Positions 22,218-35,979 of a stretch of 39,921 bases of DNA are shown here, piece after piece. This DNA is from Nanobdellota archaeon. GTDB lineage: Archaea; Nanobdellota; Nanobdellia; Parvarchaeales; Parvarchaeaceae. The notes under the pieces are model-generated. The model was not told the origin of the DNA and made no database searches. It worked only from the letters and a program-made list of their open reading frames with translations. Both the position numbers and the translations under genes were made by a program. The stretch covers positions 74,445 through 114,365 of the forward strand of contig JAKASS010000003.1 in the NCBI GenBank assembly GCA_021818905.1, read 5' to 3'. The stretch's first letter is position 1, and each line of letters opens with the position of its first letter.

Positions 22218-23624
22218 TTATATAGAACCGTAAACAGAAAATTCAATCGGATTTGGGTAGCTCCCTATTTTCTTTGCTTCCGCGCGTTTTAATCCTAGAT
22301 AGGTATCTATTACGCTGACAGGAAAAGCTTTACGCAAGAATTGATTATCGGATTCGAGTTCGTCCAATGCTGTGTTTAAGTCTCCAGGAAGCTCCTTTAC
22401 TCCGAGCTCATTTCTTTTCTGCTTACTAAGGTGATAAATATTCTCGTCTATCGGGTCTCCCGGTTCTCTTTTCTTTTCTATGCCGTCTAAAGCCGCTAAA
22501 AGTAAAGCTGAAAACGAGAGGTAAGGGTTTGCGAGCGGGTCCGGAGGCCGGTATTCTATTCTTTTTGTTGCTTCTTGGCCACGATGGTAAGTCGGTATCC
22601 TTATTGCCGCGCTTCTGTTTGATTTGCTCCAGGCAATGTATACGGGCGCCTCATAACCTGGGACAAGACGCTTGTAGCTGTTGGTCGATGGCGAAACTAT
22701 AGCTGATAGCGCTCTAGCGTGTTCCATTAGTCCTCCTACGGCATACCTTCCTAGCTGACTCAATTCAGAGTATTTGTCTCTGGCATCGTACATCAGGTTC
22801 TTTTCTTGGGATTCATTCCAAATACTAAAATTAGTGTGCATGCCGCTGCCGTTATCGCCAACGAAAGGTTTTGGCATAAATAACGCTAACATGTTATCTC
22901 CCTTTGCTATGTTCCTAGCAACGAATTTAAGCGTCTGGAATCTATCGGCGGCATCGAGCATTTCAGAATATCTATAGTTAATCTCTGCCTGCCCCGCGGT
23001 CGCAACTTCGTGATGCGTCGCTTCTATTTTGAAGTCAAAATTATTCTTTAGCGTGTTTACGATCTTTAGCCTGGTGCTGTAAGTTTTGTCTAGGGGAGTA
23101 ACCGGATAGTAACCGCCTTTGTATGGTATACTAGAAATGCTACCGGAAGCTGGGGCTTCTGATGATTTTATTTTGTACCCTATCCCCGAAGCCGGGTTGT
23201 CTATGTCAAGCTCCAAGCCATCAAAAAGGAAAAATTCGGATTCTGGTGCAAAGAAAGAAGAATAGCCCTTCCCAGATAAATATCCCTGTGCACGTTCAGC
23301 AACATTTCTTGGGTCTCGTTCAAATCTTTCGGAGCCTGCTTTATAATAAATTTTATTCAAAACCCTCGCTACGCCCTGCGCCCAAGGAAGCATCGTAAGG
23401 CTTTCGGGTATCGGCATTAGGACCATGTCGCTATCTTGAATGTCTGCAAATCCGACGATGCTGCTGCCGTCTAATTTGGCGAAGCCGGTCTTCATCGTTT
23501 TCTCATTAAGCTCGTCTGCTGGAACCAGAACCTGCCTAAGACTACCGAAAAAGTCTGTAAATTGCAATTCGAGCCAATCCACATTATTTTTAGTAAGAAA
23601 GGATTTCACGTTTTTAGAATCCAT
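22218..23624 (-). CDS. glnA: Glutamine synthetase, type I
   Basis: A 468-residue type I glutamine synthetase (ATP + glutamate + ammonia to glutamine). Visible landmarks are the N-terminal TDFFGSLRQVLVP, the active-site FAPESEFFLFD, the NTP region MHTNFSIWNE, SPSTNSYKRLVPGYEAPVYIAWS and RIPTYHRGQEATKRIEYRPPDPLANPY. The tail lacks the adenylylation tyrosine loop of bacterial GSI-beta. I use ATG 23624, not the GTG three codons earlier, because TTTATATA lies about 25 bp upstream of this ATG. Glutamine is the nitrogen donor for the GatCAB enzyme encoded nearby. Its last codons are duplicated inside the hybrid pseudogene at 31205. Confidence 0.96.
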   Translation of the reverse strand: MDSKNVKSFLTKNNVDWLELQFTDFFGSLRQVLVPADELNEKTMKTGFAKLDGSSIVGFADIQDSDMVLMPIPESLTMLPWAQGVARVLNKIYYKAGSERFERDPRNVAERAQGYLSGKGYSSFFAPESEFFLFDGLELDIDNPASGIGYKIKSSEAPASGSISSIPYKGGYYPVTPLDKTYSTRLKIVNTLKNNFDFKIEATHHEVATAGQAEINYRYSEMLDAADRFQTLKFVARNIAKGDNMLALFMPKPFVGDNGSGMHTNFSIWNESQEKNLMYDARDKYSELSQLGRYAVGGLMEHARALSAIVSPSTNSYKRLVPGYEAPVYIAWSKSNRSAAIRIPTYHRGQEATKRIEYRPPDPLANPYLSFSALLLAALDGIEKKREPGDPIDENIYHLSKQKRNELGVKELPGDLNTALDELESDNQFLRKAFPVSVIDTYLGLKRAEAKKIGSYPNPIEFSVYGSI

Positions 23625-23668
23625 TTTATACACGTGAAGACATCTTATATATAAAGAAATATTTTGAA

Positions 23669-25447
23669 TTATTTTTCTATTCTTAGGTTGTAATCATTCT
23701 TAAGTCTGTTTTGTTCTACAGGGGACGGGGAGTTATCCAGAGGAGAATCGAATCTTCTGTTTCTAGGAAATAATATGAAATCTTTTATGTCATCTTGGCC
23801 TGCAAGCGTGGCTACAAACCTATCAAGACCTATCGCGGCCCCCCCGTGGATTGGCGCCCCGTAAGAAAGTCCTTCGATCATGAAGCCCAATGAATTTTGT
23901 ATCTCGTCTTCTGATAGTCCCATCCTTCTAAACACTTTCATTTGTAACTCTGGGTCGTTTATTCTTATGGATCCTCCCGCTATTTCTATCCCGTTTAGCA
24001 CAAGATCGTAACGCTTGCCCAAGACCTTCTCCGGATCCGATTCCATAAAATGCACTGTGTCTTCGGTAGGCGAGACGAATGGATTGTGAGCTGGTTGCAG
24101 CGCTCCCGTTACCTCATCTTTCTCATATAGCGGAAAACGGTCGACCCAAAGAAATGCATGCTGCGTCTTGAACTTGCCGATCTTTATCCCTACGGCCCTT
24201 CTAAGTTTTGACATGGCGGCTAAGAGTACGTTCTCCGAAGTGTCTGCGCCGATTATTATTACGTCTCCATCGCCCGCTTTGGTTTTCACTAGGATTTCTT
24301 TCTCTACGTTCTTGAAAGCGTCTGATATAGATTCCGGAGAAGAATTTAATTTGGAATCCTTTACATACAACCAGGTAAGCCCCTTTAACCCGAGGTTCTT
24401 CGCTGTTTCGACCAAAGAAAGCATGTAATTTTTGTCTATAGATGAACCATCCTTAGAGAAATCCGCCCGGAATGCTATTGCTTTTACGCCGCCTTTATTT
24501 TCGATTACTCTTTTCAAAATATTGTAATTGCTCTTTGCAGATTCTTCGGTCATGTCAAATATCTTGTATCCAAACCTAAGATCCGGCTTATCATTTCCGT
24601 ATTCGGCTATCGCTACTTTGTAATCCATGCGCTCGAATGGGGTCTTGATATCTTGGTTTAACGTTTCCTTGAACACCTGTCTTACAAGTCTCTCGATAAG
24701 GTCCTGTATATATTTTTCGTCTTTGAATGAAACCTCGAAATCTATCTGTGTGAACTCTAGTTGTCTGTCTTCTCTCGGGTCTTCGTCTCTGAATACCCTT
24801 GCGACCTGGAAATATTTATCCAGACCAGAAACCATGCATAGCTGCTTATAAATCTGCGGTGACTGCGGGAGCGCAAAAAATTTGCCTTTATTTGTCCTGG
24901 ACGGAATCAAAAGCGTCCTAGAGCCACTTACATCGTGCGTGTCTCTGACCAGGTTGGGCGTCTCCAGCTCTAAAAAGCCTTCATCCCAAAAGAATTTTCT
25001 TATCGATTTTGTAACATTATCTCTGAATTCTATGTTTGCTATCATTTTCCTTCGCCTTAGGTCGAGGTACCTGTACTTTAATCTTAAATCTTCCGATGGA
25101 AGAAAGCCTTCTTTTTCTTCTACGATTTCAAACGGGGGGACCTTGGATTTGCCGATTATTTTCAATGATTTGGCTTCGACTTCCACCATGCCCGTCGGCA
25201 TTCCGTTGTTTATAGCATCGCTCTCGCGCTTCCTTACCCTTCCGACTACGTTTACCACGTATTCTCGGCCCAATTGGTCGGCGGCTCCTTTTATAGGCCC
25301 TTCAAAGACTACCTGGATTATGCCATATCTGTCTGCTAAATCTACAAATAGCTTTCCGCCGTGGTCTCTTATGTACCTACACCAGCCGTTCAGCGATATC
25401 TCTTTGCCAGCGTCTTTTTCTCTTAAGGCGCCGCAGTTAGTTTCCAT
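23669..25447 (-). CDS. aspS: Aspartyl-tRNA synthetase, bacterial type with GAD domain
   Basis: 592 residues with start ATG 25447, chosen because an AAATATAAATATAAA box lies about 25 bp upstream. Domains are an OB fold (GWCRYIRDHGGKLFVDLADR), a class II core with YRYLDLRRRKM and FRDEDPREDRQLEFTQIDFEV (motif 2), a GAD insertion (about residues 280-400) and motif 3 with GAAIGLDRFVATLAG. Archaeal AspRS normally lack GAD and have about 430 residues; this one is of bacterial type and suggests transfer from a bacterium. With gatCAB close by, it may be non-discriminating, charging tRNA-Asn with aspartate. That part is inference. Confidence 0.95.
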   Translation of the reverse strand: METNCGALREKDAGKEISLNGWCRYIRDHGGKLFVDLADRYGIIQVVFEGPIKGAADQLGREYVVNVVGRVRKRESDAINNGMPTGMVEVEAKSLKIIGKSKVPPFEIVEEKEGFLPSEDLRLKYRYLDLRRRKMIANIEFRDNVTKSIRKFFWDEGFLELETPNLVRDTHDVSGSRTLLIPSRTNKGKFFALPQSPQIYKQLCMVSGLDKYFQVARVFRDEDPREDRQLEFTQIDFEVSFKDEKYIQDLIERLVRQVFKETLNQDIKTPFERMDYKVAIAEYGNDKPDLRFGYKIFDMTEESAKSNYNILKRVIENKGGVKAIAFRADFSKDGSSIDKNYMLSLVETAKNLGLKGLTWLYVKDSKLNSSPESISDAFKNVEKEILVKTKAGDGDVIIIGADTSENVLLAAMSKLRRAVGIKIGKFKTQHAFLWVDRFPLYEKDEVTGALQPAHNPFVSPTEDTVHFMESDPEKVLGKRYDLVLNGIEIAGGSIRINDPELQMKVFRRMGLSEDEIQNSLGFMIEGLSYGAPIHGGAAIGLDRFVATLAGQDDIKDFILFPRNRRFDSPLDNSPSPVEQNRLKNDYNLRIEK

Positions 25448-25553
25448 AAGACAAAGAGAACCGCTGTTTATATTTATATTTCGGATTTTCCGGCGCCGGT
25501 GTCGCACGGATTAGGCCAAACTCCGTAGTTAAACCGCTTGTATCGACAAAAAG

Positions 25554-25580
25554 TTTATATATGTATGATACATACATATA
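25554..25580 (+). promoter_or_regulatory. TATA box overlapped by 10-bp-arm palindrome
   Basis: Positions 25558-25580 form an inverted repeat with 10-bp arms (tatatgtatg / catacatata) and a 3-bp spacer (ata). It overlaps the TATA-like TTTATATATG (25554-25563), and the ATG of the nucleotidyltransferase follows at 25583. A repressor bound here would block transcription directly. The N-terminal ribbon-helix-helix-like region of the encoded protein is a candidate for it, which would make the pair autoregulated. Confidence 0.7.
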
Positions 25581-25582
25581 AT

Positions 25583-26161
25583 ATGGGAAAATTTAAGCAG
25601 ACATTACTAACGGAGGAGGCGTATTCGCAACTTAAAGAAACGAAAGAACTCCTAAGTAAAATCGAAGGTAAGCGAGTCTCGTTCACGGAAGTCATAAAAC
25701 GCATGGTGAGCAAGCCGCTGGTTATGCTGAAGCTTGACATAGACATAAAAAATTATATAACTGCATTCGTTGACAGGATAAGTCTCAACAGACACACCTT
25801 GGGCGTGGTACTCTTCGGTTCCGTTGCTAAAAGCACATTCACAAGATTTAGCGATATAGATGTCGCGATCGTAACTGATTCTGACTTCTTAGATTATTTG
25901 GACTACCTAAATAAAGAAATAAAAGAAATAGATCACGAACAGGACAAATTAATCAAGGCCGGGCTCTCGCTTTACATAAGTCCGCTTATAATAACCAAAA
26001 AAGACACGCAAAGAATCAACCCGATATATTTTGATGTATTGGACGACGGCATATTATTGTACCAAAGGGAAAATACCATTTCGGACTTCTTCGGGGCTTT
26101 GGCGAAAATAAAGCACAAAAGAATAAATACGGCGGCTGGGCAGATCTTAAAATGGGGATAG
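25583..26161 (+). CDS. MNT-type nucleotidyltransferase antitoxin with RHH-like N-terminus
   Basis: A 192-residue protein when started at ATG 25583, just after the operator; upstream in-frame codons fall inside the promoter. Residues 1-45 (QTLLTEEAYSQLKETKEL, ..., FTEVIKRMVSKP) resemble a ribbon-helix-helix DNA-binding domain. The rest is a minimal nucleotidyltransferase: GSVAKSTFTRFSDIDVAIV (79-97) with G-S and D-x-D. In HEPN/MNT modules the MNT protein neutralises the HEPN toxin, in known cases by adding AMP to it. The downstream HEPN gene overlaps its end by 10 bp, confirming the pair. It is divergent from aspS. Confidence 0.88.
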   Translation: MGKFKQTLLTEEAYSQLKETKELLSKIEGKRVSFTEVIKRMVSKPLVMLKLDIDIKNYITAFVDRISLNRHTLGVVLFGSVAKSTFTRFSDIDVAIVTDSDFLDYLDYLNKEIKEIDHEQDKLIKAGLSLYISPLIITKKDTQRINPIYFDVLDDGILLYQRENTISDFFGALAKIKHKRINTAAGQILKWG

Positions 26162-26571
26162 AAATTTCGAGGGAAGCTATCAAAACTGCGGAAAGCTGGA
26201 TAAAAACTGCTGAAACGATGCTTGATAAGAAAGTCTATAATACCGCTCTGTACAGTGAAGAGATGGCTGTAGAGATAGCATTGAAGGCTGTCATGCTGGC
26301 GATGGAGATCGAGCCGCCTAAAGTCCACAATATAACGGAAATCGTGGAGACGAACGTCCTGAATTCTGACAGGTTCCCCCGTAAATACAAGGAAGAGACA
26401 AGGGAGATGACCAGGTCATTATTGCCAGAGCTTTTACGAAGCAGGCAAATAAGCGGATACACGTTCAATTATAACATAAATCAGAAAGATCTGGAGAAGT
26501 TGGCGATAAAATACTTGGAGGCGGCGCAGACCGCAGTTAAAACGTGCAAAAAGGTTGTCGACTGCCTCTAA
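26152..26571 (+). CDS. HEPN-domain toxin-like protein
   Basis: A 139-residue all-helical protein of the HEPN family, the usual partner of MNT antitoxins. Helix 1 is EISREAIKTAESWIKTAETMLDKK, helix 2 YNTALYSEEMAVEIALKAVMLAM, followed by a HNITEIVE turn and a closing helix rich in Leu and Ala. The R-x4-6-H RNase motif of DUF86-type HEPN toxins is not evident, so it may be a non-nucleolytic or binding form (COG2250-like). Overlapping genes mean coupled translation. It converges with gatB, leaving 26 bp. Confidence 0.85.
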   Translation: MGIEISREAIKTAESWIKTAETMLDKKVYNTALYSEEMAVEIALKAVMLAMEIEPPKVHNITEIVETNVLNSDRFPRKYKEETREMTRSLLPELLRSRQISGYTFNYNINQKDLEKLAIKYLEAAQTAVKTCKKVVDCL

Positions 26572-26597: not shown

Positions 26598-27878
26598 TCA
26601 AAGTTTATTGATCACGCCCTCTACCCTTGCGGCGGCGTCCCTTGGCTGTATTCCGTATTTCTTTGATATAGTCCCGACTATGAAGTTTACAACGTTTTTG
26701 TTCTTCTTGTATTTTTCCACTATAGTTTTATCCGAGTTTAGCATTTCGCGTATCGTCTCGTCTATCTGCGGCTCAGAGAATTTCTTTATCTCTACTTTAT
26801 CGCCCGCTTTTATCTTTTTAAGAACGTCCCTGGTTATGTCTATCTTCTGATCCGTTAAACCCAGTATCTCTTTGAAAACGCCGCTATTTGCCGGTTCTCC
26901 AAATCTTTTCATTATCTCCAAAGAAGCTATTATAGTTTTGAAATCAAATTCTTCTTCAAACTCGTTAATGAGGTTAAGGGCACCAGTATCAAAAGCTATA
27001 AGCTCAAGTATAGTGCTGTAATTTGCCTTATGCTTGACTGCCAGCCCCATTGCTATTTTTGTCGGTATCCGCATAGCATTTTCAGAAAGATTTTTTGTAT
27101 CATAAACGGTAAGATCTGGTTCGTAAATGAAACCGTATTCCTCTTCGCTTTCTTTTTTACGAGAGGTCTTCGTCGTGCCTGAGGCTGCGTCGAAAGACCT
27201 TGTTTCTTTCTCGGGAACGCCACCTTTTTTAATTATCGCGCCTTGTCTTGTGATCTCATATTGTGCCGCGGCTATTAGATTCTTTATCCCGGTGACGTTT
27301 TTTATTTCGACTCTTTCCTCCGCTAATGATATGTTAAGATCCGTCTTTACCTCTTGATTTACATCGACTCCTTGGTAATGAAGTATGGTCCTTAAAGTAA
27401 ACACCATCTCTCTAAGCTCCTCTTCAGTTGTTATGTCGGGCTCTGTGACTATTTCGACTAAAGGGATGCCGGAGCGATTAAAGTCTAGCAGAGTATAGCC
27501 TTCTTCTCTTATTATCCGCGCCGGATCTTCTTCTATCTGTATTCTCCTTATCCCGACCCTTTTTTTCTCCAATTCTAGGAATCCGTCGCTCCCTATCGAT
27601 TCGGAAAGCTGTGTTATCTGAAAAGACTTCGGCAGGTCGGGATAGAAATAAACTTTTCTTATGAAAGAAATATCTTCCCTTACCCTGCAGTTAAGCGCTA
27701 TCGCGATGGATTTAGCTACCCTGACCGCTTCCTCGTTTAGGACCGGCCTTGAGCCGGGAAAACCGACACATATCGGGCATATTTGTGAGTTTGGTTCCCT
27801 TGTTTCGCTTGTAGAGTCGCTGCAGAACAGTTTTGTTTTGGTCGGAAGTGCAACGTGAACTTCTAGTCCTATCTTCAT
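26598..27878 (-). CDS. gatB: Asp/Glu-tRNA amidotransferase subunit B
   Basis: A 426-residue GatB. The N-terminal start MKIGLEVHVAL, zinc-type cysteines FCSDS and CPICVGFPG (19 to 40), LDFNRSGIPLVEIVTEP (about 147-163) and DVNQEVKTDLNISL are the kinase-like and tRNA-handling core. The C-terminus carries the YqeY-like tail ending RDAAARVEGVINKL. GatB phosphorylates misacylated Asp- or Glu-tRNA before amidation. It is about 50 residues shorter than common bacterial GatB, mostly in the middle of the helical region. The gene overlaps gatA by four bases and ends the gatCAB operon. Confidence 0.95.
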   Translation of the reverse strand: MKIGLEVHVALPTKTKLFCSDSTSETREPNSQICPICVGFPGSRPVLNEEAVRVAKSIAIALNCRVREDISFIRKVYFYPDLPKSFQITQLSESIGSDGFLELEKKRVGIRRIQIEEDPARIIREEGYTLLDFNRSGIPLVEIVTEPDITTEEELREMVFTLRTILHYQGVDVNQEVKTDLNISLAEERVEIKNVTGIKNLIAAAQYEITRQGAIIKKGGVPEKETRSFDAASGTTKTSRKKESEEEYGFIYEPDLTVYDTKNLSENAMRIPTKIAMGLAVKHKANYSTILELIAFDTGALNLINEFEEEFDFKTIIASLEIMKRFGEPANSGVFKEILGLTDQKIDITRDVLKKIKAGDKVEIKKFSEPQIDETIREMLNSDKTIVEKYKKNKNVVNFIVGTISKKYGIQPRDAAARVEGVINKL

Positions 27879-29224
27879 ATGGCACCGATATTATATTTGA
27901 ATCTGTATTTGAATTTCCCTTCCCAATTTTCGACAAAAGATATGGGCGCATAGTCGTTGAAGTGGTCGCCAACTATCTGCGCGCCAATCGGCATGTCGTC
28001 AATATACTCATACGGAAAAGAAACGTGGGGGAAACCGCATAGATTCGGCGGGATAGTCAACATATCCAAAGCATAAGTTTGCACGGGCGAAAGCTTTTCT
28101 ACCTCGGATATTTTAGGCGTGGTTATCGACATAGTAGGAGATATTATGAGACTTTCCCTAAGAATCCTGCGCATCTTTTCGCCAAGCATCGCTCTTACCT
28201 TCAATGCCTTGACATAATACCTGTTCTTGACGCTTGCCCCCCTAACGAACGTCCCTAATATTATCCTTCTCTTGGCTTCCGAACCAAATTGCATCCTGGC
28301 TTCTGTAAAGAAATCGTTATATCTTTTTGAAAAGTCTCCCACCTTAAAACCATATTTGAAGCCAGTATACCTGGCAAGATTCGTCGAGGCCTCCGCGGTG
28401 GATATGATATAATAAGCCGGTATGGCCGCTTCTATGTCTTTCAAATCAACATAGTTTATCTTATAATCCATCGACTTGAGCTTTTCCAAAAGCTTATCAA
28501 ACGCGGACCTTACTTTGTCGTCCAGACCGTTCATAAGCTGGTTTATCACCGAAAACTGTATTTTTGGTTCGTCTCTCAACCTTGCATCAAGAGAAGTCGT
28601 GTCTTTTTCGTCCCTACCAACAGACATGTTTAATACTTTTCTTATATCTGCCGCCGATCTTGCCATAAAACCTATCTTGTCCAGAGAATTTGCATAATCT
28701 ATAAGACCATTCCTTGATACGACCCCATAGGTGGGTGTAAATCCGACGACGCCGCAGAACGCTGCGGGTGCGGATATAGAACCGCCCGTGGACTCTGCCA
28801 CCGCCACATGATATTTTAAGATAGAGGTCGCCACTGCCGCTCCGCTACTCGAGCCGCCCGCGACGTAATCGACATTAAAAGGATTTCTAGCCGGGGTCTC
28901 GCAATTTATGCCAAAACTCCCGAAGCCGAATTCGTCCATGTTTGTTTTGCCTAAAAATGCGAAGCCCTGTCTCTGCAATCTTTCCACAACTGTCGCGTTA
29001 AACGGTGGCTTGTAAGTCTTTAGTATTTTTGATGATGCTGTGCTTTCGACTCCCCTTACACAAATATTGTCCTTCACGCTGAAAGGAAAACCATCTCGCA
29101 AGTCTTCATTAAGATTGTTAAATACGTGTAACTCTCTATTTTTTCCTTTAAGCTCTTCTAAAAGTTTCTGGTAATAGTCCTTGGGTTTGTCTTTTGACTC
29201 AAATTCTGAAATATAACTTTTCAT
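27875..29224 (-). CDS. gatA: Asp/Glu-tRNA amidotransferase subunit A
   Basis: A 449-residue amidase-signature protein. The catalytic triad is visible: Lys in PFSVKDNICVRG (about residue 50), the Gly/Ser-rich loop AGGSSSGAAVATS (about 124-136), and nucleophile Ser in ESTGGSISAPAAF (about 146-158). It liberates ammonia from glutamine for use on GatB-bound tRNA. The N-terminus is rather short compared with bacterial GatA (about 480 residues). It overlaps gatC and gatB by four bases each, as expected for equal subunit amounts. Its first 50 codons are copied, fused to the end of glnA, at 31205-31447. Confidence 0.96.
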   Translation of the reverse strand: MKSYISEFESKDKPKDYYQKLLEELKGKNRELHVFNNLNEDLRDGFPFSVKDNICVRGVESTASSKILKTYKPPFNATVVERLQRQGFAFLGKTNMDEFGFGSFGINCETPARNPFNVDYVAGGSSSGAAVATSILKYHVAVAESTGGSISAPAAFCGVVGFTPTYGVVSRNGLIDYANSLDKIGFMARSAADIRKVLNMSVGRDEKDTTSLDARLRDEPKIQFSVINQLMNGLDDKVRSAFDKLLEKLKSMDYKINYVDLKDIEAAIPAYYIISTAEASTNLARYTGFKYGFKVGDFSKRYNDFFTEARMQFGSEAKRRIILGTFVRGASVKNRYYVKALKVRAMLGEKMRRILRESLIISPTMSITTPKISEVEKLSPVQTYALDMLTIPPNLCGFPHVSFPYEYIDDMPIGAQIVGDHFNDYAPISFVENWEGKFKYRFKYNIGAI

Positions 29225-29493
29225 ACTTCTGGTCCTACGACGTACAGGCGATGGGTCTTTGTGTTGTCCAAAAGCTCTTTCTTTTCCTTAAATTCCTTAG
29301 GAATGTCCTTTCTCATGATGCCTGGTATCTCTACTGGATGGTAAGCAGGTTCTACATTTCCGCATTCTACACCGTCGAGTTTATTAAAATAGTTTATAAC
29401 TTCCTCTAAGTCATTCTTTATTGTTTCTGATTCCGTTTCTGTAAGGCCGATCCTTGCGGTTTCTAGCAAAGATTTGAATTCCCGATCATCCAT
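29221..29493 (-). CDS. gatC: Asp/Glu-tRNA amidotransferase subunit C
   Basis: A 90-residue GatC, the small helper that links GatA and GatB. The family pattern is visible: LLETARIGLTETESETIKNDLEEVINYFNKLDG, then an acidic segment and the C-terminal MRKDIPKEFKEKKELLDN that wraps the partner subunits. It opens the gatCAB operon and overlaps gatA by four bases. A divergent second copy with 21 substitutions occurs at 31444-31716. Start at ATG 29493; an AT-rich TTATAAGGAT lies about 25 bp upstream on the coding strand. Confidence 0.93.
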   Translation of the reverse strand: MDDREFKSLLETARIGLTETESETIKNDLEEVINYFNKLDGVECGNVEPAYHPVEIPGIMRKDIPKEFKEKKELLDNTKTHRLYVVGPEV

Positions 29494-29571
29494 AAATTAG
29501 AAACTAGTTTTATCCTTATAACCATTAATCTGATTATTTGACGGTAGGTTTAGCCGTTTCAGAATTTAAAT

Positions 29572-29717
29572 GAAGAGAACGCTGAGAGGCCGAGGGCTGC
29601 TAAATAGTGCGGCCGTCTTTATCCCGACGTTTAAACGTCAAGGAGCCACTTCCACAATGGGATGAACCTTATCTTCTTGCCTTTTACCTTTTCCTCGGCT
29701 TCGTAGTCCCAGGTTAT
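29572..29717 (-). repeat. 146-bp repeat at the 3' end of ATPase genes 1 and 3
   Basis: The last codons of ATPase gene 1 (WDYEAEEKVKGKKIRF to WLLDV) and about 60 bp of its downstream flank match 33169-33314 at the end of ATPase gene 3. Both stretches are 146 bp. The downstream part can fold: in copy 3, GCCGG and CCGGC surround GATAAAA, and copy 1 can form a similar, weaker stem. It may be a shared 3'-end or terminator element, or just the limit of a gene duplication. Confidence 0.75.
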
Positions 29718-30947
29718 GACATGACCGATATCTAACTTATAAAAATCCATTGCGGCAAGGAGAGCGCTTTTTTCTCTCTCTTTTGTAGGGCTATCCGAAA
29801 CCGTGTATGCACATTGTATCAGTTTTTCTACTTTATTCCCGTCAGTCACGACAAAATCGACTTCTTTCCCGCTTAGATCTTTCCAAAATCCTACGGTAAT
29901 CGTAGCTTTTTCCTCCTTTCTTCTTAATAATTCTATATAAACTAAATTTTCTAATAGCCTGCCTTTTTGCATGTCGGAATTGAAAAGCGTCGCCATCCCG
30001 GTGTCGACAATGTATAATTTTTTGTGGGTCTGGGGCCTCTTTTTTATGCTTCTGGAGTAAGGGAATAATTGATAGAGTAAAAACACTTCCTGTGCGTATT
30101 TTATAAAGCTATTTATCGTCTTCTTACTTGCGTTCACGTCGATAGTCTTGAAAAAATTGTTTATTTTTGTGACGCTGAATTGCTGAGAAAAGCTCCCTAT
30201 CGAATAGCGGATAGTCTTGTCGAGGAGGTCTACGTCTCTTATCTTGAACCTCTTTATTATGTCTCTAAAAAATATCGCATTGTAGTATTCAGAGAGGATC
30301 TTTATCTTTTTATTTACGTCCTCCTCCTCGGATACTTCGGGGAACCCGCCGTACACTAGATATTCATCTAAAAGCCCGAGTATGGCCGCTAGTTTTTTCT
30401 GTGAATATATCGTCGTTTTATCGAGTGCGAAAGCTTTCGCTAGAATGAACTCCCGAAATGAAAAGGGGTAGACTATGTAAGTCAAGTTTCTGCCGCTAAG
30501 CGAGGTGGATATTTCCGCACTTAAGAACTTAGAACTTGAGCCCGTAACGAATATATTATATTTTCCGCTATCATACATCCGCCTTATCCACTTCTCCCAG
30601 CCGTCCACGTTTTGTATCTCGTCGACGAACAGCCATATCTTGTCTTTTTTGGCTCCATACAACTCATAATACGCGCCGGTCAAGTCTTCGAGGTCGCCTG
30701 CAGATATACTTCCAAGCCTCTCATCCTCAAAATTTATATAGATTATCGATTTTTTGTCTATGTTTTCATTTACGATTAGATCATTTATTGTCGAGAACAG
30801 CAGGTAGGTTTTACCAGAGCGTCTCACTCCCGTTACCACCACGATTTTCTTGCCGCTTACATCTAGTTTTAATTCCCTGCCGATCATTTCGGGTAGTTTT
30901 CTCTCCGACCATTCTACCAAAAGCTTCTTGAAGATTTCCTTTTTCAT
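29631..30947 (-). CDS. AAA ATPase 1 (AAA_14/DUF4143 family)
   Basis: A 438-residue protein. Walker A GVRRSGKT (40-47), Walker B WLFVDEIQNVDGW (about 111-123), sensor FVTGSSSKFLSAEISTSLSGR and the FSFREFI motif are typical of the archaeal/bacterial COG1373 family (AAA_14 plus C-terminal DUF4143). A winged-helix-like middle part is followed by a nuclease-like end with FWKDLSGKEVDFVV. Function in the family is unknown. I use ATG 30947, because an operator and TATA box lie immediately upstream and inside the longer ORF beginning at 31025. It shares its C-terminus and 3' flank with ATPase 3. Confidence 0.88.
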   Translation of the reverse strand: MKKEIFKKLLVEWSERKLPEMIGRELKLDVSGKKIVVVTGVRRSGKTYLLFSTINDLIVNENIDKKSIIYINFEDERLGSISAGDLEDLTGAYYELYGAKKDKIWLFVDEIQNVDGWEKWIRRMYDSGKYNIFVTGSSSKFLSAEISTSLSGRNLTYIVYPFSFREFILAKAFALDKTTIYSQKKLAAILGLLDEYLVYGGFPEVSEEEDVNKKIKILSEYYNAIFFRDIIKRFKIRDVDLLDKTIRYSIGSFSQQFSVTKINNFFKTIDVNASKKTINSFIKYAQEVFLLYQLFPYSRSIKKRPQTHKKLYIVDTGMATLFNSDMQKGRLLENLVYIELLRRKEEKATITVGFWKDLSGKEVDFVVTDGNKVEKLIQCAYTVSDSPTKEREKSALLAAMDFYKLDIGHVITWDYEAEEKVKGKKIRFIPLWKWLLDV

Positions 30948-30996
30948 GTTTTCTATAGGAAACGTAAATATATAAATCTTGTTTCTTATAAGAAAC
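30948..30996 (-). promoter_or_regulatory. ATPase 1 promoter: two palindromes 33 bp apart around a TATA box
   Basis: A perfect 16-bp palindrome, GTTTCTTATAAGAAAC (30981-30996), and an imperfect copy, GTTTTCTATAGGAAAC (30948-30963, one mismatch), have centres exactly 33 bp apart. Each is followed on the plus strand by GTAA. A TATA-like element (30965-30977) is centred between them, about 25 bp from the ATG at 30947. The proximal palindrome abuts the start codon, so bound protein would clamp both sides of the TATA box. Confidence 0.8.
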
Positions 30997-31204
30997 GTAA
31001 TTATGGCGATGATTTGACCGGTCAAGGCGACGTCGATCGGACATCTGTCGCTACACTGCTGTTATCGTCGCCTGGATGGTCGTAATGGCTTGGGTACCTT
31101 TAGAGCAAGCGGACCTGCCCATATGTCGTCATTTACTCCAAGGCTGACTGAAATCTGTTGATCGTGCTTTGAATCAAGTATCTGACGATGATAATAAGTT
31201 TAGT
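30997..31204. other. Spacer without identified gene
   Basis: About 200 bp between the ATPase 1 promoter and the hybrid pseudogene. Base composition is more GC-rich than the surrounding coding DNA. Short frames are open on both strands but none has a recognisable product or promoter. The last 15-20 bp before 31204 may still be remnant of the DNA downstream of glnA. It could be a decayed insertion; I see no terminal inverted repeats. Confidence 0.4.
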
Positions 31205-31447
31205 TTATATGGAACCGTAAACAGAAAATTCGATCGGATTGGGATAACTTCCTATTTTCTTTGCCTCTGCGCGTTTTAGTCCTAGATAGGTATCTATTAC
31301 GCTGAATGGAAAACCTTCGTGTAACTCTTCATTAAAATTGTTGAAAGCGTGGAGCTCTTTGTTCTTTTCCCTAAGTTCTTCTAAAAGCTTCTGATAATAA
31401 TCCTTTGGCTTCTATTTTGCCTCGAATTCGGATATTAGACTTTTCAT
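31205..31447 (-). pseudogene. In-frame gatA'-glnA' hybrid pseudogene with one internal TAG
   Basis: 81 codons on the minus strand. Codons 1-50 match gatA (MKSLISEFEAK, then KPKDYYQKLLEEL, FNNFNEELHEGFPFSV). Codons about 46-80 match the end of glnA (FPFSVIDTYLGLKRAEAKKIGSYPN to VYGSI and TAA). The frame is kept across the junction. The only disruption is a TAG at codon 12, where gatA has Asp. The junction lies where both parents share TTTTCCTnTCAGCGT. ATG overlaps the gatC' stop as in the true operon. It is best read as the product of a deletion of about 6.8 kb in a duplicated copy. Confidence 0.9.
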
Positions 31448-31716
31448 ACTTCCGGCCCGATGACATAGGAACGATGGGTCTTTGTGTTGTCTAAAAGTCT
31501 TTTCTTCTCTTTGAAATCTTCTGGCGTGTCTTCCCTCATCATGCCGGATATCTCCACGGAGTGATAGGCGGGTCCTACGTTCCCGCATTCGATATCGTCC
31601 AATCTGTTAAAATAGACTATGACCTCCTCTAGGTCTTTCTTTATCTCTTCTGATTCGGCTTCCGTAAGGCTTATCCTCGCGGTTTCCAGCAACGATTTAA
31701 ATTCTTTATCGTGCAT
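31444..31716 (-). CDS. Second GatC copy (gatC')
   Basis: 90 residues, uninterrupted, 69 of 90 identical to GatC at 29221. All helix and tail landmarks are retained: LLETARISLTEAESEEIKKDLEEV, the ECGNV segment and EKKRLLDNTKTHRSYV. Most changes are surface residues, such as G16S, T20A, T24E, N34V, E48G and E73R. It now lies 14 bp downstream of ATPase 2 and so may be transcribed with it, while its own gatA is a pseudogene. It could still compete for GatA/GatB, or be on the way to loss. No bound partner can be identified from sequence. Confidence 0.85.
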   Translation of the reverse strand: MHDKEFKSLLETARISLTEAESEEIKKDLEEVIVYFNRLDDIECGNVGPAYHSVEISGMMREDTPEDFKEKKRLLDNTKTHRSYVIGPEV

Positions 31717-31730
31717 AATTTATGCTCGAA

Positions 31731-32984
31731 TCATTTTAAATCCAGCAGCCACTTCCATAGGGGAATCAACTTTATCCTGCCGCAGTCTACCTTCTCTTCA
31801 AGTTCGTCTTTTTTTGTTATGATAACGCCTTCTTTTTTACCGAATCTTTTCATGAATTCTTCTACTGGCTTTAGATCGTTTTTATCGATTCGCTCCCGGT
31901 ATTTGACTTCTATCGGGACATCCTCGTAGACCATGTCTACCTCATTTGAATTTTTCCAGAAAGCCGAGGCTTTTGCCTTGTTTATCACTGCGGACTCTAC
32001 CATCCTGCCGAAGAACGTGTCGTCTATATTCTGTTTGTATAAGTAAGTTATCGCATTATCTGTAGGATATGCCCTTTTTCTTTTTCTTAACGTAGCTGCA
32101 TTACCTTTTCTGTAATTGCCAAGCATAGAAATCAAAAAGCTCTCCTGAAGATAGGAGATGTAATCTTTTATGACTCTTCTATCCTTTCCAAATTGCCTGC
32201 TTAGAGACTGATAATCCACGTACATGCCGGGGTTTGTAGCTATTAATTCGAGGAGGGTCTTGAGAAATCCTGGATCGTCTATTTTAGAAATCTTCGGGAT
32301 ATCGCGGTATATTATTCTGTCGATCACTAATGCCCCTATATATTCCCTGAACTCAGTGTCGTTTTTAAGAGAGAAGGTTTCCGGGAACCCCCCCATGCGC
32401 ACGAACTTCACGAGGAGTGGCCTAAGTACGGTTTCGTAAGGCGTCTTTTCTTTAATGTTATTGAATTTTAGGTATTCTTTAAACGAAAAAGTCCTTAAAA
32501 TAAACTGGAAAACCCTGCCGGCAAGGGTCTCTTTGGTCTTCTTTTTTATGAACAGCGATTCCGAACCACTTATAATGAATTTAAGTTTCGGATATAAGTC
32601 GTAGTATTTCTTGACCTCGTTTTCCCAATTTTCGCTTTTCTGGATCTCATCAAGGAATATATAAACGCGTCTGGCTCTTAGGTCCTTGCCGTGAATATCA
32701 TTATACGCATTTATTATGTCGCCGAGACCCCCCGAGGTTTCATCAAAGGAGAAAAAGAGCACGTCCGTCGGATCCGCCCTTTCACTGATAAGCTTTTGTA
32801 TCAGTTGATATATCACCGTGGTTTTGCCTGTCCTTCTTAGCCCTACGAGCGCGATGATAAATCTGTCCGCCATGTGCTCTAAGACGTCATAATAGCAATC
32901 TCTTTTGAACGACAGTGCTAGATCGGGATCGACTTTCCCGCTCAGCCACCAATGATTGAATTCTTCGATTACGGCTCTTTCCAT
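31731..32984 (-). CDS. AAA ATPase 2 (AAA_14/DUF4143 family)
   Basis: A 417-residue protein. Walker A GLRRTGKT (48-55), Walker B VYIFLDEIQKSENW (about 111-124), FIISGSESLFIKKKTKETLAGR and FSFKEYLKF match the same family as ATPase 1 and 3 but are more distant. The winged-helix part contains DYQSLSRQFGKDRRVIKDYISYL. The nuclease-like part has FWKNSNEVDMVYEDVPIEVKYR, close to a PD-(D/E)xK pattern with E-x-K. I use ATG 32984, since palindromes and TATA box lie just upstream and inside the longer reading from 33098. gatC' follows by 14 bp. Confidence 0.88.
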   Translation of the reverse strand: MERAVIEEFNHWWLSGKVDPDLALSFKRDCYYDVLEHMADRFIIALVGLRRTGKTTVIYQLIQKLISERADPTDVLFFSFDETSGGLGDIINAYNDIHGKDLRARRVYIFLDEIQKSENWENEVKKYYDLYPKLKFIISGSESLFIKKKTKETLAGRVFQFILRTFSFKEYLKFNNIKEKTPYETVLRPLLVKFVRMGGFPETFSLKNDTEFREYIGALVIDRIIYRDIPKISKIDDPGFLKTLLELIATNPGMYVDYQSLSRQFGKDRRVIKDYISYLQESFLISMLGNYRKGNAATLRKRKRAYPTDNAITYLYKQNIDDTFFGRMVESAVINKAKASAFWKNSNEVDMVYEDVPIEVKYRERIDKNDLKPVEEFMKRFGKKEGVIITKKDELEEKVDCGRIKLIPLWKWLLDLK

Positions 32985-33035
32985 ATGTACATCAGGATGT
33001 ATATGTTTATATATATTACGTACATCGCGATGTAC
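32985..33035 (-). promoter_or_regulatory. ATPase 2 promoter: two palindromes 33 bp apart around a TATA box
   Basis: Perfect palindrome GTACATCGCGATGTAC (33020-33035) and a related TACATCAGGATGTA (32988-33001; mismatched only at the two-base centre), extended with one mismatch to 32985-33004. Centres are at 33027.5 and 32994.5, exactly 33 bp apart. The TATA-like stretch (33006-33018) lies midway, about 28 bp from ATG 32984. The layout equals that of ATPase 1 but with different sequence. Confidence 0.8.
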
Positions 33036-33227
33036 ATGAAAAAGTGGGAAATTTTCCCGCTTTTCTAAATTATTGGTGCCGAAAGAAGCTTTTATCACTT
33101 TGCGTACTAAGTTAACTTTCTTTCTGGGAGAATATCTTTATCGCGATAAAGAAAAATGCCAAAGATATGAAGAGGACGCCGAGAGTCCGAGGACGACTAG
33201 ACAGTGCGGCCGGTTTTATCCCGGCGT

Positions 33228-34508
33228 TTAAACGTCAAGGAGCCACTTCCACAAGGGAACGAACCTTATCTTCTTTCCCTTGACCTTTTCCTCGGCTTCG
33301 TAGTCCCAGGTTATCACGAGAAGGTTGTCGCAACGTAACTCTTTAGAGGCCCCAATAAGATTGTTTATTTCTCTATCGTTTATGTACCGTCTATCCGACG
33401 CATATGTAACTTGGATCAACTCTGTGATTTTACTCCCGTTCTTTAACGCGAAATCGACTTCTCTTTGTTGGTGGTCTTTCCAATAGAATATGCCATATGC
33501 ATTTATGCCGATTTTTGATGTTCTTCTGGATAATTCTACCGCAACTGCATTTTCCATAAGGATGCCCTTCCTCTCACTAAGGGTCGGGCTCATGTAAACT
33601 GAGAGCCCCGTGTCTATGGAATAGATTTTTTTAGGGGCGAACACCGCTTCCTTTAATTTAAAAGAAAACCTTGTTAGCTTCAAAAATAGGTACGCTTCTT
33701 CTAGATATCCGACCCATTTGGATATAGTTATCTTGTGTTTGACCCCAGTCAATTTTATTAGGGAGGAATAACTAAATTCCTTTGAGATGTTGGCCATCAA
33801 AAACGCGGCTACCGCTTTCAAATCCTCTTCATTTTTTACCTTATGGCGCTTTATTACATCCTTCGTTATTATGTCATTGTAAATCGATTTTAAAAAATCT
33901 TTTCCAAATTTTAGGACTTCTGGAAATCCGCCTTCATTTAGATATGTATGCAATGCCACACCTACTCTGGCCCGCTCTGCGGTAGTCAATGCGCCGAGAT
34001 ATTTGGTCCCCATGTATCCCAGATACTCTCTGAAACTAAACGGAAAAAGGATGAAATCTAGATGCCTGCCAGTCAAAGACGTAGCTAATTCTCCGCTCAA
34101 AAGTGCGGAGTTGGAACCGGTCACAATCACTTTTTTTGTGTCTCTCAGCCTACTAACGAATTTTTCCCAACCGTATACCTCCTGTATTTCATCGAGTACT
34201 ATATTTTCTATATCGTCACCATAAAGTTCATAAAATGCCTGCAAAACTTTGTTTAAATCAGAAGTTTCGAGTTTTATCAATCTATCATCATCGAAATTTA
34301 TGTATCCGGATTTTTTGCCTCTAAAAAGTTCCTCAGAGAGTGTTGATTTTCCGCATCTACGTATACCGAGTATGATGATCGCGTTTGGATGAGAAAGATA
34401 TTTTTCTATTTTTATATCCTCTCTATTTATTATCTTTTCTTTCTTAAACTTCTCTTCAAGCTGTGCTCTTTGATCGATTATTACCTGCTTTAGTTGCTCA
34501 ATGTCCAT
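33228..34508 (-). CDS. AAA ATPase 3 (AAA_14/DUF4143 family)
   Basis: A 426-residue protein. Walker A GIRRCGKS (48-55), Walker B NIVLDEIQEVYGW (about 108-120), VIVTGSNSALLSGELATSLTGR and FSFREYLGY follow the family order. The winged-helix part contains FSYSSLIKLTGVKHKITISKWVGYL, and the C-terminus FYWKDHQQREVDFAL ends in the same WDYEAEEKVKGKKIRF block as ATPase 1. The shared block and 3' flank indicate a common origin. It is divergent from a small basic ORF (34598) with a palindromic region between. Function is unknown in the family. Confidence 0.88.
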   Translation of the reverse strand: MDIEQLKQVIIDQRAQLEEKFKKEKIINREDIKIEKYLSHPNAIIILGIRRCGKSTLSEELFRGKKSGYINFDDDRLIKLETSDLNKVLQAFYELYGDDIENIVLDEIQEVYGWEKFVSRLRDTKKVIVTGSNSALLSGELATSLTGRHLDFILFPFSFREYLGYMGTKYLGALTTAERARVGVALHTYLNEGGFPEVLKFGKDFLKSIYNDIITKDVIKRHKVKNEEDLKAVAAFLMANISKEFSYSSLIKLTGVKHKITISKWVGYLEEAYLFLKLTRFSFKLKEAVFAPKKIYSIDTGLSVYMSPTLSERKGILMENAVAVELSRRTSKIGINAYGIFYWKDHQQREVDFALKNGSKITELIQVTYASDRRYINDREINNLIGASKELRCDNLLVITWDYEAEEKVKGKKIRFVPLWKWLLDV

Positions 34509-34528
34509 CCTAAATGATCTATTTTCGC

Positions 34529-34588
34529 ATATAAAAAGCTTTCTATTAAGAATAGAAAGCTTTTATAAAAAGCTTTCTATTAAGAATT
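34529..34588. promoter_or_regulatory. ATPase 3 divergent promoter with large palindrome and 34-bp repeat
   Basis: Positions 34534-34564 form a perfect inverted repeat with 14-bp arms (aaaagctttctatt / aatagaaagctttt) and a 3-bp spacer (aag). A second copy of the left arm plus spacer begins 34 bp further on (34568-34588). A TATA-like TTTTATAAAA (34561-34570) is centred between the two repeat centres, as in the other two ATPase promoters. It faces the small ORF at 34598; a second box, TTTTTATATG on the minus strand (34529-34538), would give a leaderless ATPase 3 transcript. Confidence 0.75.
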
Positions 34589-34597
34589 ACAGTGTAT

Positions 34598-34759
34598 ATG
34601 TTAAAGAAGAATCTGGATCAAATGCCAGACGCCCATACAAAAAAGTTAAAAAAGAGAGCTGCACTGGGAACAGCAAATAGAACAATGAAGCGCCAAAAGC
34701 ATACTGAAAGAAATTTTTTATCCAGTATAGCGGGTACAAATAATAAAAACCGTCAGTAA
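34598..34759 (+). CDS. Small basic protein, 53 aa, unknown
   Basis: An ATG-TAA frame of 54 codons: MLKKNLDQMPDAHTKKLKKR, then AALGTANRTMKRQKHTERNF and a polar tail ending KNRQ. Basic residues are far more frequent than acidic ones (strong positive charge), which fits nucleic-acid binding. A TATA-like TTTTATAAAA is centred about 32 bp upstream, and the repeat region that would control it is shared with ATPase 3. No family is recognised. It is plausible as an antitoxin- or regulator-like partner, but it may be chance in AT-rich DNA. Past it, 34760-34887 shows nothing. Confidence 0.45.
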   Translation: MLKKNLDQMPDAHTKKLKKRAALGTANRTMKRQKHTERNFLSSIAGTNNKNRQ

Positions 34760-34887
34760 ATTTAGCGCATGTTTTCTTGGGTTTATAATTGAGGCCGCTA
34801 TAATGACGATAGCGACAGTAAATTTAAAGCTTACAAGCAAAGCTGACCTTAGTGCCGAAAGAGGCATTTACTTTAGGACATACCAAG

Positions 34888-35979
34888 TCAGCTTTCTTTC
34901 CAGGAAAACACTCTCATAGAAATAAAGAAGAACGCCAAAGAGATCGCAGCGACTATGCCCGTATTAAACAGCAAGCCAGGCACATTCCCGAACAGCATTA
35001 TCGCGTTCATACCGTTTATTACATAGTAAAGTGGCAGGAATTTTGCGATTTCCTGCAGATACATCGGCATCGATGACACCGGGAAAAACGTGCCGGCCAA
35101 AAACATCATCGGGAAGGTTATCACGTTGCCTATTATCGCGGCGGTCTCTTCATTCTTTGAGATAGAGCCGGCGACTATTCCGAGCGAAATGAACCCAAAG
35201 ACTCCAAAGAAAACAATTGGCAATATGTATAGATTGAACGTTATCCCGGCACCGAATACGAGATCCCCCACGCTTATCATCAGGACGATCGCTACCACCG
35301 CCATTATCGCATTCCACGTGAATTTTGAGACCATCCACTCGCCTTTAGTCAAGGGAGTTAGTGAAAGCTGTCTGAATATTTTTTCTTTCTTGTAGGAACT
35401 TACTATGTTTGTCATAGAAAACACGCCTGCAGTCAGCACGGAAAAACCTATCAAGCCGGGTATAAGGTAATTTATGTAGCCGACTGCGGTCGTAGAGACC
35501 GGGCTTACATAAGCGTGTATGATCGGTGTGGCATTGGCGATTTTAAAATTAAAACTTTGTATCACCAAGTTGACTGCCTGTTCTGCTGTCTGGGCGCTAG
35601 ACTGGCTCGGATTATAATAAAAAGAGATGTTCACATTTTGACTAGAAGCTACTTCCTGTGCAAAGTCCGCTGGTATGACCAGCGCTGCATCTATAGAATT
35701 CTGGTTTATGTAAGTCTGTATGTTGGCGTTTGACGGGACGGCGGTTATAGTCACTAGACCTGTACTGTTAAGCGCCGAAACAAAGCTCAAAGATATGGCT
35801 GAACCATTATTTAGATTCTGTACGGACAGCGGCACTTTAGTGCTCCCCCCGGAGAATATTGCGCCAAAGACCAGCAGAAATATTATCGGAAACAGAAGGG
35901 TAAAGAACAAAGCGGAGCGTGTCCTAAGAAAGTTTCTGGCGTACACTACAAAATCTGCTTTTATGTTCGCTAGCCTCAT
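34888..35979 (-). CDS. ABC-2 type exporter permease (system 2)
   Basis: A 363-residue permease. One N-terminal helix (SALFFTLLFPIIFLLVFGAI, about 22-41) is followed by a long extracytoplasmic domain of about 125 residues, then five helices from residue 170 on with INYLIPGLIGFSVLTAGVFS and the ABC-2 pattern KKEKIFRQLSLTPLTKGEW. The C-terminal LAGTFFPVSSMPMYLQEIAKFLPLYYVINGM is the typical end. The extracellular domain makes it like YhgE/drug-export ABC-2 permeases; the substrate is unknown. It begins one base after the ATPase gene stop, so they form one exporter. Confidence 0.92.
   Translation of the reverse strand: MRLANIKADFVVYARNFLRTRSALFFTLLFPIIFLLVFGAIFSGGSTKVPLSVQNLNNGSAISLSFVSALNSTGLVTITAVPSNANIQTYINQNSIDAALVIPADFAQEVASSQNVNISFYYNPSQSSAQTAEQAVNLVIQSFNFKIANATPIIHAYVSPVSTTAVGYINYLIPGLIGFSVLTAGVFSMTNIVSSYKKEKIFRQLSLTPLTKGEWMVSKFTWNAIMAVVAIVLMISVGDLVFGAGITFNLYILPIVFFGVFGFISLGIVAGSISKNEETAAIIGNVITFPMMFLAGTFFPVSSMPMYLQEIAKFLPLYYVINGMNAIMLFGNVPGLLFNTGIVAAISLAFFFISMRVFSWKES

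Follow-up and report, generated by a model that had tools for sequence, protein, structure and literature searches.

A broken gatA-glnA hybrid and an intact second gatC beside the native amidation genes of a small archaeal genome

The locus described here resembles several known kinds of genomic arrangement. In pseudogene relics of xenologous or duplicated operons, known from small prokaryote genomes, a partial second copy stands beside the native locus, carries an in-frame stop and has no counterpart in relatives; the present case shares all of these features but is unusually legible, with an intact second gatC (gatC2), fused gatA and glnA ends (gatA' and glnA') and a permease-tail remnant marking several edges of the copy. 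The locus also belongs among the neighbourhoods that bring together GatCAB, AspRS and glutamine synthetase: the native genes run gatC-gatA-gatB-aspS-glnA, and glnA lies adjacent or near in the genomes G012, G016, G007 and G017 as well, whereas the second set retains only gatC plus gene ends. As in microhomology deletion and fusion genes, two collinear genes have been joined at a motif of 7-15 bp with the frame kept, yet here both motifs code FPxSV in one frame and the product is nonetheless broken by a stop at codon 12. Within the genus, glnA itself is patchily distributed, being found in 5 of the 23 genomes searched (here at 22218-23633; elsewhere at loci L005-L008), and where present it lies beside or near gatCAB-aspS.

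The hybrid relic occupies positions 31205-31447 on the minus strand of the window, by which we mean the whole 39,921-nucleotide stretch of DNA that was analysed. Here gatA codons ~1-50 continue in frame into the final ~31 glnA codons, and the minus-strand frame, read from 31447 to 31205, translates as MKSLISEFEAK*KPKDYYQKLLEELREKNKELHAFNNFNEELHEGFPFSVIDTYLGLKRAEAKKIGSYPNPIEFSVYGSI*, with asterisks for stops. A first-pass annotation of this DNA had reported such an in-frame gatA'-glnA' hybrid interrupted by a TAG at codon 12, and both statements are confirmed by the translation and, for the hybrid, by two partial genome matches; its tally of 50 plus 35 codons counted the shared FPxSV twice, the actual length being 80 codons plus stop, of which gatA contributes about 45-50. 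When 31190-31720 was compared with the organism's own genome (0.94 Mb in 25 contigs, listed as 100% complete), only three matches appeared, namely the region itself, the start of native gatC-gatA (76% over 420 nt, E 3e-83) and the end of native glnA (89% over 113 nt, E 3.5e-37), so that the alignment with both parents proposed earlier gave the expected partners, and matches of this strength exclude chance as the origin of the hybrid. The homologue of its first half, established by sequence match and alignment, is native gatA (27875-29224, minus strand), and that of its second half is the terminal segment 22218-22330 of native glnA, also on the minus strand. With two distinct, identifiable parents and a frame disrupted by the TAG, the hybrid qualifies as a short-homology fusion pseudogene. 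TAG is an ordinary stop in this genome (6 of the 30 genes checked), and the codon-12 stop keeps the fused frame from yielding a full product.

The junction falls within 31298-31317 (minus strand), where the hybrid reads TTTTCCATTCAGCGT. Because the alignment gives the gatA letter immediately before TCAGCGT and glnA letters afterwards, the crossover can be placed in or just before TCAGCGT. Among the 1,862,136 15-mer pairs that native gatA and glnA can form, exactly one matches at 14/15 or better, and it is the junction motif, a coincidence well beyond chance; a join through short-homology recombination is therefore well supported. The reading frame survived the join because the two motifs code for FPxSV in the same phase. 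The shared motif reported earlier is thus indeed present at the junction, although the native parents agree at 14 of 15 positions and not over an exact 15 bp. Microhomology joins are typical of amplification chimeras, and likely foreign contigs do occur in assemblies of this genus (G041, contig C1), which together raise the question of whether the hybrid is an artefact of assembly or amplification. We consider this very improbable: each half is distinct from all other sequence in the genome (identities of 76% and 89%), so that the hybrid was not built from the native genes, within a 114-kb contig it possesses a stop and flanking sequence of its own, and ordinary k-mer assembly would not join sequences over as little as 7-15 bp in common.

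The surroundings of the hybrid are best read against those of the closest relatives with useful contigs, G012 (80-90% amino acid identity across the block) and G040 (gatA and gatB, where present, at 86-88%), the contigs of the latter breaking off in the permease tail and within gatA. On the minus strand of the window, native gatC (29221-29493), gatB (26598-27878) and aspS (23669-25507) were assigned from the gene list and the sister comparison, with profile matches in addition for gatC and aspS. G012 carries, in single copy, the order ABC permease, gatC, gatA, gatB, aspS, glnA, tRNA_SAD protein and UDG; its block has neither the HEPN/MNT pair nor the ATPase genes seen here, and no gene separates permease from gatC. 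Homology to G012 stops at 29535 upstream of gatC and restarts at 34885 in the permease gene, and the hybrid therefore sits in an insert of ~5.35 kb, which contains, in gene direction, ATPase3, a permease-tail copy, ATPase2, gatC2, the hybrid and ATPase1. Rfam returned no RNA family at 29000-35000. The MNT/HEPN pair between gatB and aspS (25538-26571, plus strand) is toxin-antitoxin-like; G040 has a different MNT/HEPN pair (35-37% identity) right after gatB, and a contig end of that genome bears a broken, partly inverted pair whose HEPN part is 94% identical (L062 1977-3010; L174 1-530).

The permease 3'-end remnant (33073-33168, minus strand; 96 bp, 72% to 34849-34944), which the first-pass annotation did not include, marks how far upstream the second copy can be traced. 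Because it lies on the outer side of gatC2, the second copy reached upstream into the permease gene, and the permease-to-gatC order was kept. Its identity to G012 (81%, 62 bp) exceeds that to the native tail (73%, 64 bp), which counts weakly against duplication in place. Just downstream of the hybrid, a candidate pilin-like relic (QSALE*MTTYG; 31119-31154, minus strand) matches at 83% over 36 bp a pilin-like gene situated close to the gat genes of a relative; the match is weak, its best E being 8e-5 with few loci searched, similar genes follow the gat genes in G013, G004 and G040, and, such genes being multi-copy, the relic gives only a faint further hint.

Directly upstream of the hybrid lies gatC2 (31444-31716, minus strand), whose intact reading frame encodes a GatC of 90 amino acids with 77% amino acid and 75% nucleotide identity to native gatC and 35.4 bits against the PF02686 profile (curated cut-off 23). 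Third-position GC is 0.56 in gatC2 and 0.40 in native gatC. That gatC2, and perhaps also a short hybrid product, is a working paralog and not a relic would be in keeping with its full length, its dN/dS of 0.06 and its start 14 bp downstream of an ATPase gene. We regard this as improbable, since low dN/dS speaks for past and not for present use, the gatA partner of gatC2 has been destroyed, TAG acts as a genuine stop here, and column 83 of gatC2 holds S, an unusual residue at a mostly conserved position. Loss of conserved residues was otherwise uninformative as a sign of decay, few GatC columns being conserved.

The two halves of the fusion differ in their distance from the native genes. Over the compared stretches, which are short (93 to 270 nt), gatC2 and native gatC differ with pS 0.71, the value also found between native and G012 gatC, and gatA' and native gatA with pS 0.70 and dN/dS 0.055; these synonymous values are near saturation, which makes both dN/dS figures rough. 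In glnA', pS from native glnA is 0.375, with 9 synonymous and 0 nonsynonymous changes. Synonymous differences from native thus stand at ~60/85 for gatC2 plus gatA' versus 9/24 for glnA' (Fisher P = 0.004), and the site patterns relative to G012 (native=hybrid : native=G012 : hybrid=G012), star-like for gatC plus gatA (47:46:40) and skewed towards native=hybrid for glnA (17:3:4), differ between the two parts (P = 0.0015). Counted as third-position differences per 31-codon stretch, the minimum is 10 both for gatC-gatA and for native-G012 glnA, and the glnA tail has 8. The unequal synonymous divergence and the site patterns indicate that the halves do not share one history (P ~0.0015-0.004), unless gene conversion held the glnA copies similar. 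The low dN/dS values show gatC2 and gatA' to have been, as far as such rough estimates reach, under strong purifying selection over most of their divergence, and the purely synonymous changes in glnA' imply that it was part of a functional glnA almost up to the time of the join. Since both halves derive from genes that stayed functional through most of the time they evolved separately, the fusion and the stop are recent relative to the divergence, and the second set still worked until recently.

These observations bear directly on the history proposed at first, in which the whole gatCAB-aspS-glnA block was tandemly duplicated within the lineage, after which a deletion between the two motifs removed about 6.8 kb from one copy. 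The collinear order and orientation, the presence of both intact parents nearby, the weak clustering of gatC2 with native gatC and the closeness of glnA' to native glnA all accord with such an event. A single deletion in one duplicated block predicts halves of equal age, however, and the copies are not uniformly diverged, which gene conversion of glnA could excuse; gatC2 has moreover diverged to the level of a separate species. Traces of the remaining block genes are likewise missing, with no second gatB, aspS, gatA middle or glnA body anywhere in the organism's own genome, so that only gatC, the gatA start, the glnA end and the permease tail are attested, although a complete deletion would leave no such traces either. 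The 6.8-kb figure presumes the native layout including the HEPN/MNT pair; in the sister layout, which has no such pair, the loss would be about 5.65 kb, so that the size follows from the layout assumed for the second copy. We therefore judge the tandem duplication unlikely. Of the original account, the sequence comparisons support that the hybrid derives from second copies of gatC-gatA and of glnA, fused where the two share a short motif; duplication of the whole block, a single deletion and its 6.8-kb extent find no support in the form proposed.

A further possibility is that a complete second block was never present and that short-homology (illegitimate) recombination or template switching between two molecules attached an extra glnA end to a fragment terminating in gatA, in which case there was no single deletion of 6.8 or 5.65 kb. 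The halves do differ in divergence and in their relation to the sister genome, and the middle genes have left no traces; against this, the changes in glnA' point to a working second glnA and not to a fresh copy of the native end, and the collinear order is more simply explained by deletion within one molecule. On balance we hold a join between two molecules to be conceivable but doubtful.

The reading we prefer, with a probability of roughly 60%, is that the hybrid is the dead remnant of a second, divergent copy running from the permease end through gatC and gatA to glnA, most likely from a related Micrarchaeota lineage and later joined at FPxSV. Because gatC2-gatA' has diverged from the native genes to the same extent as the sister species, an origin by transfer from a relative is no less likely than one by duplication in place, and the species-level divergence, the permease tail nearer to G012, the differing third-position GC and the dominance of transfer in Micrarchaeota together make acquisition the more likely origin of the second set. 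On the last point, in gene-tree reconciliation across Micrarchaeota transfer accounted for about 43% of gene-family events and duplication for 2% (PMC12892359). The gatC tree, in which gatC2 groups with native gatC (support 89/31) as expected of a duplicate made in place, would argue weakly the other way, and the glnA half, clearly closest to native glnA (17:3:4), does not come from an equally distant species; duplication in place is thereby kept possible. Under the preferred reading, the divergent copy would have come from the related lineage and integrated beside the native block, perhaps by recombining within or near the repeated ATPase genes; joining by short homology at FPxSV, over 7 to 15 bp, would then have fused gatA to glnA in frame while leaving gatC2 intact, and the stop at codon 12 would have broken the fused frame, probably in that order.

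The ATPase genes, all of the AAA_14/DUF4143 type and on the minus strand, lie between the hybrid and native gatC (ATPase1, 29631-30950), between the permease-tail remnant and gatC2 (ATPase2, 31731-33098) and between the intact permease gene and the remnant (ATPase3, 33228-34508). ATPase1 and ATPase3 share a 151-bp repeat, R, comprising the ATPase 3' end and its 3' flank; the copy at 33167-33317, whose end abuts the permease-tail remnant, is 88% identical to the second window copy at 29570-29720, upstream of native gatC, and about nine or ten copies, several of them shorter, occur in the genome. Although the AAA_14/DUF4143 proteins concerned are only ~23-57% identical, their 3' ends (~90-150 bp, coding plus trailing) reach 83-91% nucleotide identity (L188, L189, L190, L191), a conservation that suggests gene conversion or a recombination site. 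It is a speculative and rather unlikely extension that these near-constant ends form a recurrent recombination site admitting segments from related archaea, with the gatC2/hybrid segment, flanked by two repeats, as one passenger. Upstream of the ATPase genes, at 34508-34888 and 30949-31010, there are palindromic boxes (for instance TTTCTTATAAGAAA and repeated TTCTTAATAGAAAGC) that resemble operator sites. The literature searched yielded nothing on DUF4143 in archaea and nothing directly on the gatC2/hybrid arrangement.

Among the 28 genomes of the genus, neither the hybrid nor a convincingly native second gatC-gatA was found, so that the search of relatives suggested with the first account revealed neither the same fusion nor an intact second block. 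Two gatC matches in G013 proved to be overlapping contig ends of identical sequence, and a second gatC-gatA in G041 lies on a 5.7-kb contig (C1; L053) that is 99.2% identical to G010 over 4.2 kb and is probably a binning contaminant. No donor lineage grouping with gatC2 emerged from these 28 genomes or from a GTDB-wide gatA scan, in which the nearest named records were Micrarchaeota and Marsarchaeota MAGs (57-62% identity); the stretch examined contained one block in each. Where other loci matched the hybrid more widely, the match was the extension of an ordinary gatA or glnA and not a fusion, and viral contigs contained no gatC relative.

The relic is real and well preserved, and it is of an ordinary kind among genome-decay events, with a history more complicated than first proposed; each half of a fusion should be dated before a simple duplication-deletion story is accepted. 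It constitutes a clear fossil showing that the essential tRNA-amidation genes of a Micrarchaeota-like archaeon of ~0.94 Mb once existed in two divergent versions, the surplus one having been broken through a homology of 7-15 bp.
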